DNA from: Microvirga ossetica
GTDB taxonomy: Bacteria; Pseudomonadota; Alphaproteobacteria; Rhizobiales; Beijerinckiaceae
NCBI RefSeq assembly: GCF_002741015.1
Contig: NZ_CP016617.1
Location: 744,001-808,000 of the forward strand
Length of the DNA stretch: 64,000 nucleotides
Reading direction: 5' to 3'
Position 1 is the stretch's first letter. Each line of letters begins with the position of its first letter. Shown here in pieces: positions 1-29,106 of the stretch. The translations under genes and the position numbers were made by a program. Under the pieces are notes generated by a model, which searched no databases, was not told the DNA's origin, and saw only the letters and a program-made list of their open reading frames with translations.

Positions 1-339
1 CTATCACCGGAATTGATCCTTGAGGCCTGCCCCACCCTCAGCGATTACCCCGAACCGATTGAGGATGTGTCCGATATTGTGGCGGCTGGGCGCTATCTGC
101 GAGGCTCGCTGGGGGCGAACGAGAGTGCCTGGAACGAGGCGGTGGCCGAGATCGGCCTGGTGCGGGCCGCGGTGACGGTGATCTACGTGCTGCAGCTCTA
201 CGACGACGATGTCTCGAGCGGCGAGGGCCGGATCAAGAACCCGGGCGGTTATTTCCGCGCTATGGCGCGCCTGGTCAAAGCCGGCCGGATCGACCTTAGT
301 GTCGAACTCCTCGCCATGCGGAGGCGTCGAATGTCATGA
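1..339 (+). CDS. repC: Plasmid replication initiator RepC, C-terminal part (cut by window edge)
   Basis: The reading frame is open from base 1 and ends at TGA 337-339. It begins LSPELILEACP and contains the segments AVAEIGLVRAAVTVIYVLQL and NPGGYFRAMARLVKAGRI. This matches the conserved C-terminal domain of RepC, the initiator of repABC plasmids, where a Pro-Gly-Gly-Tyr-x-Arg stretch precedes a short basic tail. RepC binds the origin, which in this family lies within repC. repC is usually the last gene of repABC, so repA and repB should lie upstream, outside the window. A TTG at 13 is only an internal codon. The family assignment is from pattern recognition. Confidence 0.85.
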   Translation, partial: LSPELILEACPTLSDYPEPIEDVSDIVAAGRYLRGSLGANESAWNEAVAEIGLVRAAVTVIYVLQLYDDDVSSGEGRIKNPGGYFRAMARLVKAGRIDLSVELLAMRRRRMS

Positions 340-7055: not shown

Positions 7056-8282
7056 ATGTGGCACGTCTCCCCCAGTGGGCGCCTGGATAGGCTCACGGTC
7101 TTCAAGCATGTCGGAGGCGGCTACGTCCCGGCCGGCGAGATGACATTCGAGGGCAGTGAGTTTCTTCGTCCCGGTGCATTTCAATATGACCAAAGTTATC
7201 TTGAGACACCTGGCGCAACGCCGCTCGATCCTCTTGGCCTTCCCGTCGTGTCACAGGTTTTCCCAGGTGTCCCAGAGGCTCCACTTGCGCTGCTCGACGC
7301 CGGGCCGGAGGGCTGGGGTCGAAGCGTCCTTGCCATGGCCTTCGAGGGATCGGTTCTTGGTGCAGCTGAATTTCTCGCGGCAGGCACCACAGACCGCACC
7401 GGTGATCTGGCCTTCGGCGCCTCTGGTGAAGGGGGACCTGGACATTGGCGGCCTGATGGCTCCCAGTCGTCGGGGATCTCCAACCAATGCGACGATCTCG
7501 AAGCCTTGATGCTTGCCGCCATCGCGGCGGATGAAAGCGACGCGACAGCCGATCAGCTCGGGATGCTCGTCCGAGCCTGTGCCGATGTTGGCGGCGCCCG
7601 CCCGAAAGTGAGATGGCGCGACCGGGAAGGGGAAGGGATTGCGAAGTTCCCGACCTGGGGCGACAAGTTCGACGATCCGCGCATCGAGGCCGTTTGCCTG
7701 GATGTCGCGGAATCCGCCGGTCTCCCAGTTCCGCAGCGCCGGCTTGAGACCTTCTCGGGCAGGACCGCTTTGCTGGTGCGGCGCTTCGACCGGTCGGAGG
7801 ATGGCAAGCCCTATGCTTACTTGAGCATGGGAACGCTGCTCCAGGAGCCTGCAAGCAGCTATGGAACGACCAGAACCTACACCGACATGGCAGCGGCTGC
7901 CCGGGCGATCGGCATTGAAGCGCCGGAGGAGCAGATGTTCCGCCGGCTGCTGGTGAACGCCTTTCTGCACAACACCGACGACCATCTGCGCAATCACGCA
8001 GTCATCAACACAGGGGAGGGGTGGGAGCTCTCGCCGGTGTTCGACGTCGTTCCGTATCTTGAACGGAAGCGACACGTCTGCGCTCCTGGACCCGGGTTCA
8101 GCCCAGAGTGCGATCCGCAGGTGGCGTTTGCCTCGCACATTGCCTTCGGGTTGGCTGAAGAGCAGGCTGAGGCAATCCGCGATGATGTCGTGGCGGCGGT
8201 GCGCCGCTTGCCTGAGTTTTTCGATCGTCGTGACGTGAGCAAAGCCGATCAGGAGCTTCTGCGGGGATTGGGGCAGCAATGA
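7056..8282 (+). CDS. hipA: HipA-family serine/threonine kinase toxin
   Basis: The product has 408 residues, the usual HipA length. Visible motifs are the N-terminal subdomain (PAGEMTFEGSEFLRPG), the DLAFG segment, the glycine-rich GGARPKVRW, the ATP-binding Lys in GIAKFP, RRFDR, the catalytic NAFLHNTDDHLRNHAVI, and the metal-binding Asp in LSPVFDVVP. HipA phosphorylates glutamyl-tRNA synthetase in the E. coli paradigm and drives persistence. The expected upstream HipB antitoxin is not recognisable. Only a short Arg/Glu-rich frame (6934-7020) lies there, so the toxin may be orphaned or use another antitoxin. All key residues look intact. Confidence 0.88.
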   Translation: MWHVSPSGRLDRLTVFKHVGGGYVPAGEMTFEGSEFLRPGAFQYDQSYLETPGATPLDPLGLPVVSQVFPGVPEAPLALLDAGPEGWGRSVLAMAFEGSVLGAAEFLAAGTTDRTGDLAFGASGEGGPGHWRPDGSQSSGISNQCDDLEALMLAAIAADESDATADQLGMLVRACADVGGARPKVRWRDREGEGIAKFPTWGDKFDDPRIEAVCLDVAESAGLPVPQRRLETFSGRTALLVRRFDRSEDGKPYAYLSMGTLLQEPASSYGTTRTYTDMAAAARAIGIEAPEEQMFRRLLVNAFLHNTDDHLRNHAVINTGEGWELSPVFDVVPYLERKRHVCAPGPGFSPECDPQVAFASHIAFGLAEEQAEAIRDDVVAAVRRLPEFFDRRDVSKADQELLRGLGQQ

Positions 8283-8889: not shown

Positions 8890-9924
8890 ATGACAGTTCA
8901 AGACGCAACCCAGCCCCTGCGGGCCGGGCGGGACGCTCTCTGCCTCGATCGCACGCCGCTCACCATCGTGCAGCGGTTTCCTTCAAACCTTCTGACGAAA
9001 GCCTTTATCGTGACCACCCCTACAGACGAATCTACTTTGAGCGCCGACGAGCTCGCCACCCTGATCAAAATGCACGTCTTTGGGCAGGATGCTGCCATTG
9101 ACACCTTTGCGGCGCAGGCCATCCGTCGCCGCGACACACGTCCGGCGGATCGCCCGCTCGGCGTCTTCCTGTTCGCAGGACCCGACGGTTTCGGCATCAA
9201 CCGGATCTATGAGTGTCTCCAGACCACAGCCGGCGTCAACGCGGTCCGCGCCTCCTTTTCCGGAGCGGTGGCAGCGGCGGACGTCTTGTTTCAGGTGAGC
9301 GAGGCCGCCGACGCCCCCCACACCGTCGCCGATTTCTACAAGGTCGACCCAAGGAGCGTCGCCCTTCTCGACAACATCGACAAGGCTAACCCAGACATCA
9401 TGGCCCGCCTGCAGCAAGCCTGGAGCACCGGTCTCTTGCGCAGCAGCCAGGGAGATGACATTTCGATCGCGGGGGGTATGTTTCTGCTCACGACAAGAGT
9501 GGCCAGCACTGCGATCGCCGAGTTGGCCCGGCGCGAGAGCGACCCGGATCGGCTGCACATCGAAAGCCTCAAGATCCTGCTCGATGCCGGCTTTCCGGCC
9601 CCTGTCCTGACGAGCATCGACCGGATTGTTTGTCTCCGCGACATCACGCTCGACGATCACTTTCGGTCGGCTTATCGCGGGATCGCTGAAGCCGTGGCTC
9701 CTCATGGTCTCGCGCTTGAGGCGGGTGGGGTCGATGCGCGGATCCTGATTGAATTCATGGCGCCACTTCTGGGCGGGCGCGCCACGGCCGGCCGTGTCAC
9801 GGACGAGGCGCTGGCGGCTTGCCTGGCCGAGGCTCGGGCCCAGGGGATGACGCGGGTGCGTCTGATCCAGGGCGAGAGTGGTGTCCTTGTGGTGCCGGCC
9901 ATGACCCCGGTGACGGGCGCATGA
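8890..9924 (+). CDS. Clp-D2-like AAA+ protein with degenerate nucleotide site, copy 1
   Basis: The architecture follows the second AAA+ domain of ClpA/ClpB: VFGQDAAIDTFAAQAIRRR, then a P-loop position, a Walker B position, a sensor region and the SIDRIVCLRDITLDD segment. Catalytic positions are lost. Walker A reads GPDGFGIN instead of GPTGVGKT, and Walker B reads VALLDNIDKA with Asn for Glu. It is probably a non-hydrolysing scaffold (inference). ATG 8890 gives 344 residues. GTG 9010 (MTTP) aligns with the MTTL start of the paralog and may be the true start. The stop overlaps the next gene by 4 bp. Confidence 0.7.
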   Translation: MTVQDATQPLRAGRDALCLDRTPLTIVQRFPSNLLTKAFIVTTPTDESTLSADELATLIKMHVFGQDAAIDTFAAQAIRRRDTRPADRPLGVFLFAGPDGFGINRIYECLQTTAGVNAVRASFSGAVAAADVLFQVSEAADAPHTVADFYKVDPRSVALLDNIDKANPDIMARLQQAWSTGLLRSSQGDDISIAGGMFLLTTRVASTAIAELARRESDPDRLHIESLKILLDAGFPAPVLTSIDRIVCLRDITLDDHFRSAYRGIAEAVAPHGLALEAGGVDARILIEFMAPLLGGRATAGRVTDEALAACLAEARAQGMTRVRLIQGESGVLVVPAMTPVTGA

Positions 9925-10418
9925 GCGGCCTTGACCTGGATCCCGCCCTGCGGTTGCAGGCCCACGCCCTTCTCGACCGCTTGGTCGGGGAGGGGAGCAC
10001 CTTTTCATCCGGCGATGCCCGGCGTCTGATCGCGCTTGTGCCGATGACACGAGCCTCCCGGCTCTCGTTTGTGGGCACCCTCACGGGCCGCGGCGGCCGC
10101 CTGCGCGGGGATGCCGCCGGCGTCGGCCCGGTGGACCTGGAGGGGGAGGCGAGGGATAAGCGCCTGTCGTGGAAAGCGCCCAAGCTTTACCGGATCGGGG
10201 GCTATGAGGTGACCCATGCCCCGGGAGAGATCGGGATCAGCCTGCTGTGGCACGAGACGCGGATCGATCAAAGCGGACAGAGCTGCGTGCTGGTTTACGA
10301 CGCCATAACCGGTGAGCCGCGGGAAATGCTGATCGCCCGGGAGCGCTCGCTTGGGTTGTTCTTCATCCGCTTGAGCTACGTCTCGTACATTCCCTGGAAG
10401 ACGCCGGTGGCCGGATAG
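9921..10418 (+). CDS. Partner protein of the AAA+-like gene, copy 1
   Basis: The start ATG 9921 overlaps the preceding stop (ATGA), implying translational coupling. The 165-residue product has a helical N-terminal half and a C-terminal domain: LSWKAPKLYRIGGYEVTHAP, then SLLWHETRIDQSGQSCVLVYD, and FFIRLSYVSYIPW. I do not recognise the family. The same C-terminal domain recurs behind the second AAA+-like gene (11711-12001), so the pair is a conserved module. It is probably a cytoplasmic partner of the AAA+-like protein (inference). Confidence 0.7.
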   Translation: MSGLDLDPALRLQAHALLDRLVGEGSTFSSGDARRLIALVPMTRASRLSFVGTLTGRGGRLRGDAAGVGPVDLEGEARDKRLSWKAPKLYRIGGYEVTHAPGEIGISLLWHETRIDQSGQSCVLVYDAITGEPREMLIARERSLGLFFIRLSYVSYIPWKTPVAG

Positions 10419-10481
10419 GGAAGACCCTTCAGGTCATCGGTACAGCCCTTCCGACCCCCTTCCCCGACACCGTTTCAACCA

Positions 10482-10504
10482 GCGCCGCCACGAGCGGCGC
10501 TTTT
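10482..10504 (+). terminator. Rho-independent terminator
   Basis: GCGCCGC (10482-10488) pairs perfectly with GCGGCGC (10494-10500) around a 5-base loop and is followed by TTTT. It separates the two AAA+-like modules, so they are probably transcribed separately. Confidence 0.75.
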
Positions 10505-10525
10505 CATTTCGACTTGGACACCTTC

Positions 10526-11482
10526 ATGACAACCCTTTCTTCAAAGCCAATGCCGATAGTGCCCGTCCCCACCGCCGCCATGATCGCCGACGCCCTTTCC
10601 GGCGCTGTGATCGGGCAGGATCCGACCCTGGCTGCCCTGGCCACTGCGGTGCACGCTCAGCTCACACTCCATCAGCCCGGCCGCCCCACCGGCGTCCTCC
10701 TCCTCGCCGGCCCTGACGTGGCCCGGGCCAAGGACGCGATCGCCCATGCGCTCGCCGACGTCCTCGGGTACGACTGGGGCCTGTACGATCTCGCCGATCC
10801 CGACCTGACCGTGGAACAGTTGTTCCGGTCCGGACCATCGGGCCCGCGTCCGGGCTCGCTGTCGCATCAGCTGATGCGCGTGCCGCACTCGGTCATCGTG
10901 CTGGATGGGATCGAACGAGCTGACCCGCCCGTGCTTGAGCGCCTGATCGCGAGCTGGCGCAACGGGGTCATCCTCGACATTGCGGGGGAGGGGATCCCGA
11001 CCGATGCGGCGATCTTCCTGCTCACGACTGCCGTCGCGCCCGCGCGGCTTGGCCAGATCGGCCGGGAGGACCTGTCGGCCGATCAACGGCACCTCGCCTG
11101 CCTCAAGATCCTGTCCGATGAAGGGGTGCCGGCGGGTCTTCTGTGCGGCGTTGATGTCGCCTTCTGCCTTCAGGGCCTGACGATGCGCGATATCGCCCGG
11201 GAGTGCCGTCGTCGTCTTGAACAGCAGGTGGCCTCGCATGGGCTGAGCCTGACAGAAGATGGTCTCATCACCGAAGTTCTGACATGTGCCATGACCTCGG
11301 CGCTTGGCGTCTCAACACTGGCGTTCCGGCACCGCCGCGTCGCCCTCGACCGTCGCCTCGCGCAGTGCCGCAAGACGGGCGTCACGCGCATCCGGCTGGT
11401 GATGGACGGGGACGAGATCGGCGTTGTGCCGGTCAAGCCGGCAGATGCCGCTAAGAGCGCACCATCGGCATCGAACCCTTAG
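10526..11482 (+). CDS. Clp-D2-like AAA+ protein with degenerate nucleotide site, copy 2
   Basis: This paralog of the 8890-9924 gene has the same order of segments: GAVIGQDPTLAALATAV, LLLAGPDVARAKDAIAHALA in place of Walker A, VIVLDGIERADPPVLERLI in place of Walker B, IFLLTTAVAP, and the GVDVAFCLQGLTMRDIAREC region. The Walker A Lys-Thr and Walker B Glu are missing here too, and by different substitutions than in copy 1. Retention of the fold with loss of catalysis in both copies suggests a structural or regulatory role. The start ATG 10526 gives 318 residues; an in-frame TTG lies at 10514. Confidence 0.7.
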   Translation: MTTLSSKPMPIVPVPTAAMIADALSGAVIGQDPTLAALATAVHAQLTLHQPGRPTGVLLLAGPDVARAKDAIAHALADVLGYDWGLYDLADPDLTVEQLFRSGPSGPRPGSLSHQLMRVPHSVIVLDGIERADPPVLERLIASWRNGVILDIAGEGIPTDAAIFLLTTAVAPARLGQIGREDLSADQRHLACLKILSDEGVPAGLLCGVDVAFCLQGLTMRDIARECRRRLEQQVASHGLSLTEDGLITEVLTCAMTSALGVSTLAFRHRRVALDRRLAQCRKTGVTRIRLVMDGDEIGVVPVKPADAAKSAPSASNP

Positions 11483-11710
11483 TGAGCGTCCCGCGGTCGT
11501 CTATCATCATGGTCGCAGAGCGCGATCTTGGAAACCGAGATGCCCCGAAACCGGGAGCCGGAATCTGCCGCGATTTGAGACGGGACGCGTCTTGTTGCGG
11601 GTGCGGCGGCCGCGCCATTCGGCATAATGACCACAAGGTCAGTGTCACCAGAGCCTTGCAGAGCAGGTCGCGTCGCAGGGGTTGGTCCTGGCTGAAGGCG
11701 ACATAGACGC

Positions 11711-12001
11711 GTGATCCTGATCCATCCCATGGATCCGGCGATCGAGCCCTTTGCCTCAGGCGTCACGTTCCTGCGTGATGGCGAGAAGCAGGTCTCATGG
11801 AATCCTCCCACCGTTCACAGAGTCGGAGGGTATGTGGTCACTCACTCCTCGGGCCAGATCGTCATCGACATGATGTGGAGCGAAACGTGCGAGGATCGAT
11901 CGGGCCAAAGCTGCCTGCTCCTCTACGATCCTGACATGCGAGAGCCGCAGCGGATCTCGGTTCAGAAGTCCCTGCCCCTGCTATTCATCCGCTTGGTCTA
12001 A
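11711..12001 (+). CDS. Partner protein of the AAA+-like gene, copy 2, shortened at both ends
   Basis: This 96-residue frame starts at GTG 11711. It aligns with the C-terminal domain of the 9921-10418 protein: SWNPPTVHRVGGYVVTHSSG, DMMWSETCEDRSGQSCLLLYD and LLFIRLV. The paralog's N-terminal half is absent. The stop TAA 11999-12001 sits where the paralog has a Tyr codon (LSY versus LV-stop), and the next codons still read VTYVPGG, like VSYIPWK. It is therefore probably a recently truncated gene, perhaps non-functional. Confidence 0.6.
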   Translation: MILIHPMDPAIEPFASGVTFLRDGEKQVSWNPPTVHRVGGYVVTHSSGQIVIDMMWSETCEDRSGQSCLLLYDPDMREPQRISVQKSLPLLFIRLV

Positions 12002-12786: not shown

Positions 12787-14406
12787 CTATCGACCGCTGT
12801 TGTCGATGCTATCGAGATAGCGTTCGAACTCCAGCTGTTCCACGGCCTCGGCCGCCATGAACTCCCGCAGTGTCGGAACGTCAGGCTCGTCCCAAATGAT
12901 AGCCTTAAACTGATCCTGCATACTCCATAGATGCCGGTTCATCATGACAGATCCATGGAGACGACGCGGGAAGAGCCAATAAGGAAAGCGCTCATGGCTC
13001 CGGTTCCAGTGCGGGATCGACTGGTCACACTCAGCCCATTCCGCCATATCCCGAGGCGAGAAGCCTTCAAGCCAGGTCATCGCATTGATGACCTTCTTAT
13101 AGACCTCCTGCTCTTCGTCGGTCAGCCTTCCCAGGATCTCATAATCGTCCTTGGCCATACGGATCTTGGCAATATCGAGCCTCATATCCAGATCATCGTT
13201 GTCAATCTGGCCCGTCTTGTAACACCAATGGTGGAACTCCACCGACCACAGCCGCTCCTCAACCAGAGGCCACACGCAAATACGGATGCGCTCCTCTTCG
13301 ATCCAAGGCTCGATCATCATCTTGAATGTCCGATAAACGCCCATAGCGCCCCGATAATTTCTCAGGCCATCTTTGAGCATCTCATCGACCTCTTCGAGGG
13401 TCATCTCATCCTCGTCGTTGAGATATTTGACGTAGAGCCACTTGAGGACATCCTCCTCCTTCATGCTCTGGTCAGGGTTTTTCTCATTATAAGTCGGATA
13501 AACCGTCGAGAGGCCAAAGCCCTTGAAGACGTCCTTCACTTCAGTCGGAGCCGACTGAGGATCCGTGAAGTCGTAATCATGCTTGAAGGCCCCGTGATCA
13601 CCACGCTCCCAAACCCGGCTCTCCATGAACCTCAGGAAATGGCGCTCCTTAGCCTCAGCCAGATCAGCCGCGTCGAGTTCATCCTGATACTCCTGGTCGA
13701 AGCCCAGAGGCCGCGCGAGGAATGACGGCAGAGGACGTTCAACGAAATCGGTCTCGTCGACCACCGACTTTGCCGGTGCCGGAACGACCTCAGAAAGGGT
13801 CGGCTCGACCTTAGTCTTGACCGAAATCGACGTATCGCTGATCGCGACATCGATCTGGATCGCCTCAGGCTCAATGACATCCACGCCACGGCTGCCCGCG
13901 ATCGTCGACTCCAGAAGAGTACGGCCGATTTCAGGGGCCAACTTCGGCACAGAGGCTGGGGCAGGGGATGCGGTCTCGGTCAAACCGGTATCAAATGTCT
14001 CAGTGGGAGAAATATGCAATGATGGCGTGGCTGTAGGTTGTATTGATGCGCTCCGAAGGCGACTGGCGGAAGTGGTCGCCCGCGAGCGGCGACGAGGGCG
14101 TGGGTTGTCAGGGCCCCCTACGGGCGGTCTGCCCGGTTCTCGCTTCGGTGCCGCCGTGAAGGCCAAATCGATTGCCGCTGCCTGTGCCGCTGTCCGATCG
14201 AACCGACCGCCGACGGTCGCTCGCTGGATCAAGGCAATTAGCTTTCTGGTCTGGCTCTCAAGAGCGCTCGCTGAAGCGAGCCTCGCCTCATATTCCGCCA
14301 GAGCCTTGGCTCGCATCTTCGGGATGCCTGTCTCAAGGGTGTTCAGAGCGCGCTCGAGCATGGTTTTTGGGCGCTCTTGTCCCCAAAGGTAGCGATTAGA
14401 AGTCAT
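12787..14406 (-). CDS. Large orphan protein, 539 residues
   Basis: The start is ATG 14406. The N-terminal third is helical and basic (LNTLETGIPKMRAKALAEYE). It is followed by a long low-complexity linker rich in Pro, Ser and Thr (about residues 90-240). The C-terminal 270 residues are charged, rich in Trp and Tyr, and look like a folded helical domain (for example WLYVKYLNDEDEMTLEEVDE and FHHWCYKTGQIDNDDLDMRL). I recognise no family, catalytic motif, signal peptide or membrane helix. It is a single gene with its own intergenic regions. Its codon use looks normal for the window. Confidence 0.75.
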   Translation of the reverse strand: MTSNRYLWGQERPKTMLERALNTLETGIPKMRAKALAEYEARLASASALESQTRKLIALIQRATVGGRFDRTAAQAAAIDLAFTAAPKREPGRPPVGGPDNPRPRRRSRATTSASRLRSASIQPTATPSLHISPTETFDTGLTETASPAPASVPKLAPEIGRTLLESTIAGSRGVDVIEPEAIQIDVAISDTSISVKTKVEPTLSEVVPAPAKSVVDETDFVERPLPSFLARPLGFDQEYQDELDAADLAEAKERHFLRFMESRVWERGDHGAFKHDYDFTDPQSAPTEVKDVFKGFGLSTVYPTYNEKNPDQSMKEEDVLKWLYVKYLNDEDEMTLEEVDEMLKDGLRNYRGAMGVYRTFKMMIEPWIEEERIRICVWPLVEERLWSVEFHHWCYKTGQIDNDDLDMRLDIAKIRMAKDDYEILGRLTDEEQEVYKKVINAMTWLEGFSPRDMAEWAECDQSIPHWNRSHERFPYWLFPRRLHGSVMMNRHLWSMQDQFKAIIWDEPDVPTLREFMAAEAVEQLEFERYLDSIDNSGR

Positions 14407-20698: not shown

Positions 20699-21856
20699 TC
20701 ACGCCTGTCCACGTCCTCCCATCAGGCGCAGGGAGGCGTCAGAGCCGGTGACTTTGGGCTGGTCGAGGTTCAGGTTGCCGAGCTTCCAGGATTGAAGCAC
20801 CACAGAGGTCTCACCCATCGCTTTCGGCTTCACACCACCGTCCAGGGCACGCTGAATCGTCAGCACCTTACCACTCCAGTCCAGCAGGAGCCGATCTTCC
20901 GGACCAAACCCTGCACGGTCCCACAACTCTCGCGGCAGGCGGATGGAGGTGTAGAACCTGTCCGAACGCTTGGCGTCTGGGATCGATTTCACCACGACAG
21001 GCGCGGAGCCCACCGTACGGGCTTTGTCCTCACTTTGGTTTAGACGCGCCTTCGGCTTCTCGCGCCCTTTGGCCTTGGATGTCACGAGGGGCCCTGGTTC
21101 TAAGCTAACGTCCGTATCCTGCTGTTTGACAGGTTCAGTCTCTCGCGTGAGCGGCTTTTCTGCCTTGGTGGGCTCTCGCTCGGGAGCGGAGGCGCTTGGA
21201 ACCGACTGGATCGCGCGGACGACGTCTCTGAAGCCGCCGGAGATACCTTCAGCTGTTCGAACCATCAGAGGTGCGAACCGTGCGATGGCCTCGATTTGCT
21301 GACTGCCAAGAGCTACCAGCTGGCCCATCTGCTCGGCCATAAGCTCCATGGTCGAGCGAAGACCTTTCAACTCGGCGGCCATGCCCGTCAGGGCTTGTTC
21401 CACCTCTGGCGACAGGGCAGGCGCCGATCCGGTCTGCAGGGGTGCCTCCGGAGCAGGGGGACGAGGCGACGGCACGGGCTTGGGGCGGAAGACCTCCGCA
21501 GCGAGCGCCTCGGGCTTGCCCAAGTGGCGCGCCAGGATGTCAGCCGTATCTCGGGTCCGCTTGTCCGCTGGGGCGGTCGGGCGACTTGAAGGGTTCGCAG
21601 CCTCTGTCGACCGATGACGCTGAGCCTCGCGGGGTTTTGTCAGGCAAGCCGGACACAGATCGTAGGCGCGATCGCGTCCGAGAAGCCAGCCGCGGTCCTT
21701 GAAGTAGCCTTTGATGAAGTCATCACCTACAGACTTGCTGGATTCGTAGGTGTCCGTCTTATGGCACCCGGAGCATCGGGCGGTAAAACGGTACTGGGAG
21801 GGTGCCCCACCACTGCGGGTAATCTGCGGCTCGAACTGACGTGCGATGCCGGGCAT
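20699..21856 (-). CDS. Orphan with zinc ribbon, helical middle and AbrB-like tail
   Basis: This 385-residue protein starts at ATG 21856. Near the N-terminus two Cys pairs, CSGCHK and LCPACL, about 38 residues apart, look like a zinc ribbon. A Pro/Ala/Arg-rich linker follows. A helical region (about 145-220, TGMAAELKGLRSTMELMAEQ) may form a coiled coil, followed by a second disordered stretch. The C-terminus, FYTSIRLPRELWDRAGFGPE then DRLLLDWSGKVLTIQRA, resembles a SpoVT/AbrB-type beta fold. The layout suggests DNA binding, but no known family is recognised. It is a single gene. Confidence 0.65.
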   Translation of the reverse strand: MPGIARQFEPQITRSGGAPSQYRFTARCSGCHKTDTYESSKSVGDDFIKGYFKDRGWLLGRDRAYDLCPACLTKPREAQRHRSTEAANPSSRPTAPADKRTRDTADILARHLGKPEALAAEVFRPKPVPSPRPPAPEAPLQTGSAPALSPEVEQALTGMAAELKGLRSTMELMAEQMGQLVALGSQQIEAIARFAPLMVRTAEGISGGFRDVVRAIQSVPSASAPEREPTKAEKPLTRETEPVKQQDTDVSLEPGPLVTSKAKGREKPKARLNQSEDKARTVGSAPVVVKSIPDAKRSDRFYTSIRLPRELWDRAGFGPEDRLLLDWSGKVLTIQRALDGGVKPKAMGETSVVLQSWKLGNLNLDQPKVTGSDASLRLMGGRGQA

Positions 21857-28572: not shown

Positions 28573-29106
28573 ATGATCCGAACCTTGGCACCGTTGCTCG
28601 GCAACTGGCAGCGGGCTGTGACCGTCATTCTCGGGGTCGGAGCCGCGGCTGGATGGGGCATGCTTGCGGTTTCGAGCCAATCCGCAGTTGAAACCGAACG
28701 TCAATTGCAGGAGCGGATCGCCGCACTCCAGGACAGCCAAACGCAGCTGTTGCTGGAGCGGGACCGATCCCAAGTTGCAAGCACGGAACTTGTTCGCCTG
28801 CGCAACGAGCTCAGTTCAGCCCAGGATGAAATCGCGCGTCTTGCCCAGAGCCGGACTCAGGCTCAGTTGAAGGAACCTGCGGACAGGCTGCCGCTTGATG
28901 CAAGTTCATCCCCGGCACGTCTGTCGCAGAACGGCGTTTCCCAAACAGGCTCCATCCGGGGCTTGCCTCCAACTCCGCCGCAGGCGCCACCACGTCCGGC
29001 GCAAGCAGCACCTTCGAAGCCGCAAAGTGGTGTCATGGTCGTTCAGGCTAGCGACAGAAAGCGGCAGGGACCGGAGCAGGCTCCGGTCCTGAAGCCGGGA
29101 GGATAG
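28573..29106 (+). CDS. Membrane-anchored coiled-coil protein
   Basis: Start ATG 28573 follows AGGAG. The 177-residue product has one N-terminal hydrophobic helix (about residues 12-32, AVTVILGVGAAAGWGMLAVS). Next comes a long coiled coil (about 36-95) with Gln/Glu/Leu repeats, then a Pro/Ala-rich C-terminal half. The topology suggests an anchor with a periplasmic or cytoplasmic rod. No specific family is recognised. Confidence 0.6.
   Translation: MIRTLAPLLGNWQRAVTVILGVGAAAGWGMLAVSSQSAVETERQLQERIAALQDSQTQLLLERDRSQVASTELVRLRNELSSAQDEIARLAQSRTQAQLKEPADRLPLDASSSPARLSQNGVSQTGSIRGLPPTPPQAPPRPAQAAPSKPQSGVMVVQASDRKRQGPEQAPVLKPGG

Follow-up and report, generated by a model that had tools for sequence, protein, structure and literature searches.

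A Clp-like gene pair, an unpaired copy and a wreck

The stretch from position 8890 to 12001 of the window (the whole 64,000 nucleotides of Microvirga ossetica DNA analysed here, from contig NZ_CP016617.1, our C2) carries two genes for degenerate proteins resembling the second AAA+ domain (D2) of Clp ATPases, which we call AAA copies 1 and 2, and a small gene, S, that overlaps the end of copy 1 (Table 1). Our findings suggest that the AAA proteins are pseudo-ATPases; with S, their genes form a recurrent two-gene unit that often lies close to the replication gene repC. The initial annotation had recognised two adjacent paralogous Clp-D2-like open reading frames (ORFs) at these positions, and profile matches bear this out: Pfam AAA_2 is hit at E 6.8e-07 by copy 1 and at E 2.1e-05 by copy 2 (under the curated cut-off for copy 2), the D2 part of the ClpV, ClpA and ClpB models gives best E values of 3.6e-15 and 2.8e-14, respectively, and the best NCBIfam match is TIGR03345 (ClpV/TssH), with a score far under its cut-off. 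Mutual identity between the copies is 30-31%, and copy 1 shares four bases with S (9921-9924). Start codons are those of a home-made gene caller, and that of copy 2 is uncertain (TTG 10514, ATG 10526 or ATG 10550).

While the initial annotation saw two modules, each with a small partner gene, our data argue for one intact pair, one unpaired copy and one wrecked pair. The supposed second partner, the ORF at 11711-12001, opens with a segment (MDPAIEP...LRD) that by eye resembles the C-terminal part of AAA; it becomes S-like only from 11783, at about residue 79 of S, so that the N-terminal half of S is absent, and its TAA stop falls where similarity to S still continues beyond. Together with an AAA fragment in a different frame just upstream, the segment 11655-12001 is the remnant of a third AAA-S pair rather than a partner gene, which leaves copy 2 without an intact partner.

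Table 1. Genes and other features of the window, with strand and supporting evidence (aa, amino acids)
Feature	Position	Strand	Evidence or remark
AAA copy 1, degenerate Clp-D2-like protein, 344 aa	8890..9924	+	ORF, Pfam/NCBIfam matches, motifs, structure model
S, intact small partner, 165 aa	9921..10418	+	ATGA overlap with AAA copy 1
Stem-loop resembling a terminator, in the gap separating S from AAA copy 2	10481..10511	+	Weak
AAA copy 2, paralogous degenerate Clp-D2-like protein from a different subclade, 322 aa	10514..11482	+	ORF, matches, tree
AAA fragment, 19 residues, different frame; leftover of a third AAA gene	11655..11711	+	Short blastp against the family, best E 2.6e-05
Third-pair wreck: AAA-like head (by eye) and C-terminal half of S; TAA within S similarity	11711..12001	+	
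repC-like gene, 3' end	13..336	+	RP-C domain just beyond the window (G000:C2:743215-743715)
HipA-like gene	7056..8282	+	HipA_C, E 3.9e-37; cluster near the module in 4/44 stretches compared
538-aa protein without Pfam match	12787..14406	-	Its neighbour cluster in 9/44 stretches
385-aa protein without Pfam match	20702..21856	-	Its neighbour cluster in 7/44 stretches

A Clp D2 fold and its lost motifs

The structure predicted for AAA as a single chain has the fold of ClpB D2, as expected of a Clp/HSP100 domain; in the model of copy 1 the first ~48 residues are disordered, and the true start possibly lies further in. The motif sequences quoted by the initial annotation are correct: at the Walker A and Walker B places copy 1 reads GPDGFGIN and DNIDKA, copy 2 GPDVARAK and DGIERA. 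Both keep the Walker B Asp, and in copy 2 a Lys occurs close to the Walker site, though not within any GK[ST]. The same degeneration runs through the family. Walker A GK[ST] and Walker B DE are both absent from all 24 members read from their loci, and in a set of 83 (made without duplicates, without proteins of at most 290 aa and without P0088, P0092, P0095 and P0096) the Walker A pattern GxxxxGK[ST], the pore-loop Tyr (GYxG) and the sensor-2 Arg are each found in 0/83, the Walker B Glu in 1/83, the sensor-1 Asn in 2/83, the Walker B Asp in 13/83 and the Arg-finger Arg, at the aligned column, in 10/83; a Lys occupies the Walker column in 20/83, a count that depends on the alignment. The Walker A pattern is missing as well from the further copies checked outside this set. 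Still present in the family are the IGQ box and Walker A's first Gly; it has also gained H223, K228 and D232, constant in 81-83 of the 83 proteins.

AAA is therefore best read as a pseudo-ATPase derived from the second AAA+ domain of Clp/HSP100 proteins. Because Walker A, the Walker B Glu, the pore loop and both sensors are lost or nearly so, it would be unable to split ATP by the known route or to pull a polypeptide through. A conserved Clp-D2 family without catalysis, as the initial annotation proposed, thus finds support in the fold, in motif loss at the level of sequence and in recurrence, and the ordinary active Clp homologs that it named as grounds for dropping the idea occur neither among the 24 locus members nor among the 83.

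Set beside the D2 domains of ClpB, ClpA and ClpV (HSP100), the family is alike in fold and in sequence over D2, including the IGQ box and the first Walker A Gly, yet differs in being single-domain, in lacking Walker A, pore loop and sensor 2 and in the near-absence of the Walker B Glu and sensor-1 Asn. By its fold AAA belongs with Clp D2; in mechanism it departs from what defines a Clp unfoldase. The nearest relatives by profile score are active single-AAA Clp-D2-like ATPases (L108-L115, L138-L141) from Microvirga and other genera of the order, for which the libraries searched gave no family name. While they share the single-domain C-terminal architecture, their motif columns are intact in 12/12, a hydrophobic N-terminal stretch is present in 10/12 (0/83 in the degenerate family) and their gene neighbours are different and do not include S. 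Several of them (L108-L111 and L113) have neighbours in common, among them an EAL-domain gene and one resembling metallophosphoesterases. The plant SMXL/SMAX1 proteins are unlike AAA too, since SMXLs, according to PMC9133912, keep Walker motifs and have N, D1 and M domains. Despite the ClpV-like profile match, that part of the neighbouring genes which was scanned held no type VI secretion genes.

In a tree built together with active relatives and with D2 domains of Clp proteins, the 24 degenerate proteins form one clade (support 100/99), which is present in 100% of 200 bootstrap trees; where this clade joins is uncertain, given long branches and a root placed at the midpoint. A single loss of catalysis followed by motif drift would be the simplest account of one such clade, and independent losses, which the initial annotation had read from the differing motifs of the two copies, find no support in it and are rejected. 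For close pairs, dN/dS is 0.23-0.56 in the degenerate AAA proteins, 0.05-0.09 in the active relatives and 0.04-0.39 in S; the medians over all pairs with dS of 0.05-1.5 are 0.50 (n=214), 0.075 (n=10) and 0.21 (n=170), respectively. Both AAA and S are under purifying selection and, with dN/dS below 1 yet above that of the active relatives, AAA is constrained, though less so than a motor.

The AAA-S unit and its distribution

S lies directly 3' of AAA in 16/24 cases, with frames that overlap by 4 or 8 bases in 12 of these 16 and a gap of no more than 25 bases in 15/16. The duplicated module with a small partner described by the initial annotation accordingly holds as a recurrent AAA-S two-gene unit, though not for copy 2 with its missing partner, and the pair recurs in other genomes, so that the absence of any further adjacent pair, which would have spoken against it, was not what we found. 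Across 15 pairs the protein distances among AAA go along with those among S (r 0.47; 9/10000 permutations), which shared descent alone could explain. In its model S begins with a hairpin of helices, after which comes a part rich in strands, and it has no family match at E 1 in Pfam, NCBIfam, PHROGs or PADLOC; in PADLOC copy 2 has none at E 1 either, and copy 1 weakly matches DolB (E 0.0074). As the initial annotation suspected of this layout, the two-gene unit is named by no library searched, and among open-licence PMC papers we found none on the AAA-S pair. An apparent S-AAA fusion (P0092) was rejected and left uncounted, since its linker differs from the S C-terminus and it looks like a frameshift. 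A phage origin was likewise discarded, as two peptide patterns detected no S relative encoded on any viral contig.

The genome of the window (9.63 Mb, six contigs) has eight AAA copies, two each on C2, C3, C4 and C5; three further AAA matches there belong to frames 856-961 aa long whose Clp motifs are intact. S has eight matches there, some fragmentary. The S gene on C5 is interrupted by an IS21-type element with IstA/IstB-like genes (G000:C5:326113-329251; L017 6108-9252). Two paralogues are often found side by side: the pairs on C2, C5 and in L099 join two subclades, and those on C3, C4, L095 and L096 join two others. Among the matches listed, 13/48 Microvirga genomes have degenerate AAA, each with at least one copy lacking GK[ST], and the degenerate family was seen only in this genus. 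A profile search of 397 genomes of the order, in which the five best candidates per genome were scored at an E limit of 1e-28, returned four matches beyond the window's own genome, all of them Walker-intact. S is found in 18/61 relatives, all within the genus, and also in Methylobacterium nodulans, and is sparse elsewhere in the family and class; the named records from Microvirga are M. terrae pR24_1, plasmids of Microvirga sp. VF16 and M. zambiensis. All genomes with degenerate AAA have S (13/13), and S goes without it in 7/18 genomes; therefore S arose first or stands better alone. With relatives in other genomes and proteins under purifying selection, these genes are more than chance ORFs.

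The unit beside repC and what it may do

On complete replicons 6/6 loci lie no more than 17 kb from repC, and 0/200000 random placements were as close on average. Among all 28 AAA matches, 15 are within 16.2 kb of a repC and two at a distance of 81-87 kb, while the contigs of the other 11, many of them short, carry no repC. At locus L019 the repC upstream of the module carries both RP-C domains. While the place downstream of such a repC recalls repABC replicons, in which repA, repB and repC form a single operon and an antisense RNA limits RepC (PMC6090056), the three genes are not contiguous here and no parB lies near the module's repC; RepA was not profile-searched. Indeed, the repC genes next to modules on C2 to C5 have ParB 61, 140, 452 and 642 kb away, and the sole contiguous case in this genome, a parB adjoining repC on C6, has no module; C4 also yields short ParB_N matches in two 89-aa frames, one of them ~38 kb from repC. 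The M. terrae record runs repC, WGR gene, Xre/MbcA/ParS-type gene, AAA, S, and VF16 pMVF16-5 has repC, a WGR gene and, further along, S without AAA; the annotated stretches shown for these two hold neither repA nor repB. A solitary repC has been reported from another plasmid (PMC5613091). Of the roles that the initial annotation thought conceivable, defence finds no match apart from that of copy 1 to DolB; as for plasmid transfer, the four plasmid records with S are typed non-mobilizable in PLSDB. The association that did emerge is with repC.

The unit is a backbone component of secondary replicons in which repC and the partition genes are separated, and sits just downstream of that repC. We tentatively propose (at a probability of about 0.4) that AAA is a non-hydrolysing Clp-like scaffold or adaptor which holds S and probably serves replicon maintenance. 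AAA and S, made together from overlapping frames, would most likely bind each other; AAA would serve as a subunit of a rigid ring or scaffold, or as an adaptor docking on an active Clp-type ATPase, and S as the part that contacts the target. A scaffold role of AAA is likely; the task in replicon upkeep, be it RepC dosage or activity or stability of the replicon, is proposed from its location only. Clp-type proteins are known as motors, so if this is true an unfoldase domain has been turned scaffold, its motor wholly dropped yet still selected and tied to one partner and one replication locus, which raises the question of how copy number is controlled where repC is away from its usual regulators. 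A more specific version, in which the dead Clp domain and S control RepC where repC is split from repA, repB and the antisense RNA, and do so by sequestering or presenting the initiator rather than unfolding it, strikes us as rather improbable.

Several points weigh against maintenance by an AAA-S scaffold. S is not directly downstream of AAA in 8/24 cases, and the S genes in genomes free of degenerate AAA sit sometimes on a contig without repC and once on a 5-Mb contig. Three of the seven repC in the window's genome lack a module (the other four are within 3-12 kb of AAA genes), as do many repC elsewhere, and the two distant AAA matches (G027:C120) are those 81-87 kb from repC. The loci are, moreover, related by descent, and their closeness to repC may reflect inheritance instead of function. 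This last point also favours a hitchhiker with another role (e.g. defence or stress) that is near repC as part of a co-inherited, insertion-tolerant downstream segment, an explanation that we take seriously even if we hold it to fall short of even odds: the linkage test cannot tell shared descent from function, module content differs between replicons, and besides a HipA-like gene the segment carries antitoxin genes of the Xre/MbcA/ParS type and insertion elements. Its place near repC, however, is kept by loci of several AAA subclades, PADLOC and PHROGs return only general Clp ATPases and the weak DolB match, and two peptide patterns revealed no S relative on viral contigs.

Relaxed constraint is real, as AAA evolves faster than its active relatives (0.50 vs 0.075 in the medians above), and might indicate a functionless family drifting to loss, in line with the wrecked pair at 11655-12001 and the split S gene on C5. 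Full-length open frames in the 24 members read from loci, a close-pair dN/dS well under 1 and the constancy of H223, K228 and D232 nonetheless render such decay improbable. An unlikely but somewhat better option is a dominant-negative subunit that enters an active Clp ATPase ring, or caps it, and shifts the target choice of that ATPase, seeing that the fold matches a ring-forming D2 domain and that active single-AAA relatives, mostly with the N-terminal hydrophobic stretch, share some of the genomes (G003, G009, G011, G020). In 9/13 genomes with the degenerate family, though, no such relative is found among the matches listed at E 1e-15, so that the partner there would have to be ClpA, ClpB or ClpV, and the Arg finger is an Arg in a mere 10/83. 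As for an addiction unit with S as toxin and the Clp-like protein as its neutraliser, genes that overlap, carriage on plasmids and toxin-antitoxin genes nearby are what such units typically show; since S lacks degenerate AAA in 7/18 genomes, however, it is tolerated without AAA and the two are not always together as type II toxin-antitoxin pairs are, and S matches no known toxin family. The order AAA-then-S is usual for antitoxin and toxin and decides nothing. We regard this scenario as very unlikely.

Terminator-like stem-loops number 4 in the stretch against 2.0 expected from shuffles (weak), promoter-like sites 1 against 0.5 expected, and a single parS-like 16-mer (28774-28789) compares with 0.73 expected in the window; an Rfam scan of 1-24000 gave no match reaching its gathering score. 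Among the neighbour clusters used for Table 1 and below, c7 is impure in that it includes a HAD hydrolase. Between the paired AAA genes of L018 lie two divergent, Pfam-less genes (9704-9976, minus strand, 91 aa; 10144-10830, plus strand, ~206 aa), whose clusters occur in 9/44 and 12/44 of the stretches compared, respectively. Finally, a small WGR-domain gene is found 3' of repC in several replicons (L103 3266-3457; L125 6959-7210; L129 3374-3625).
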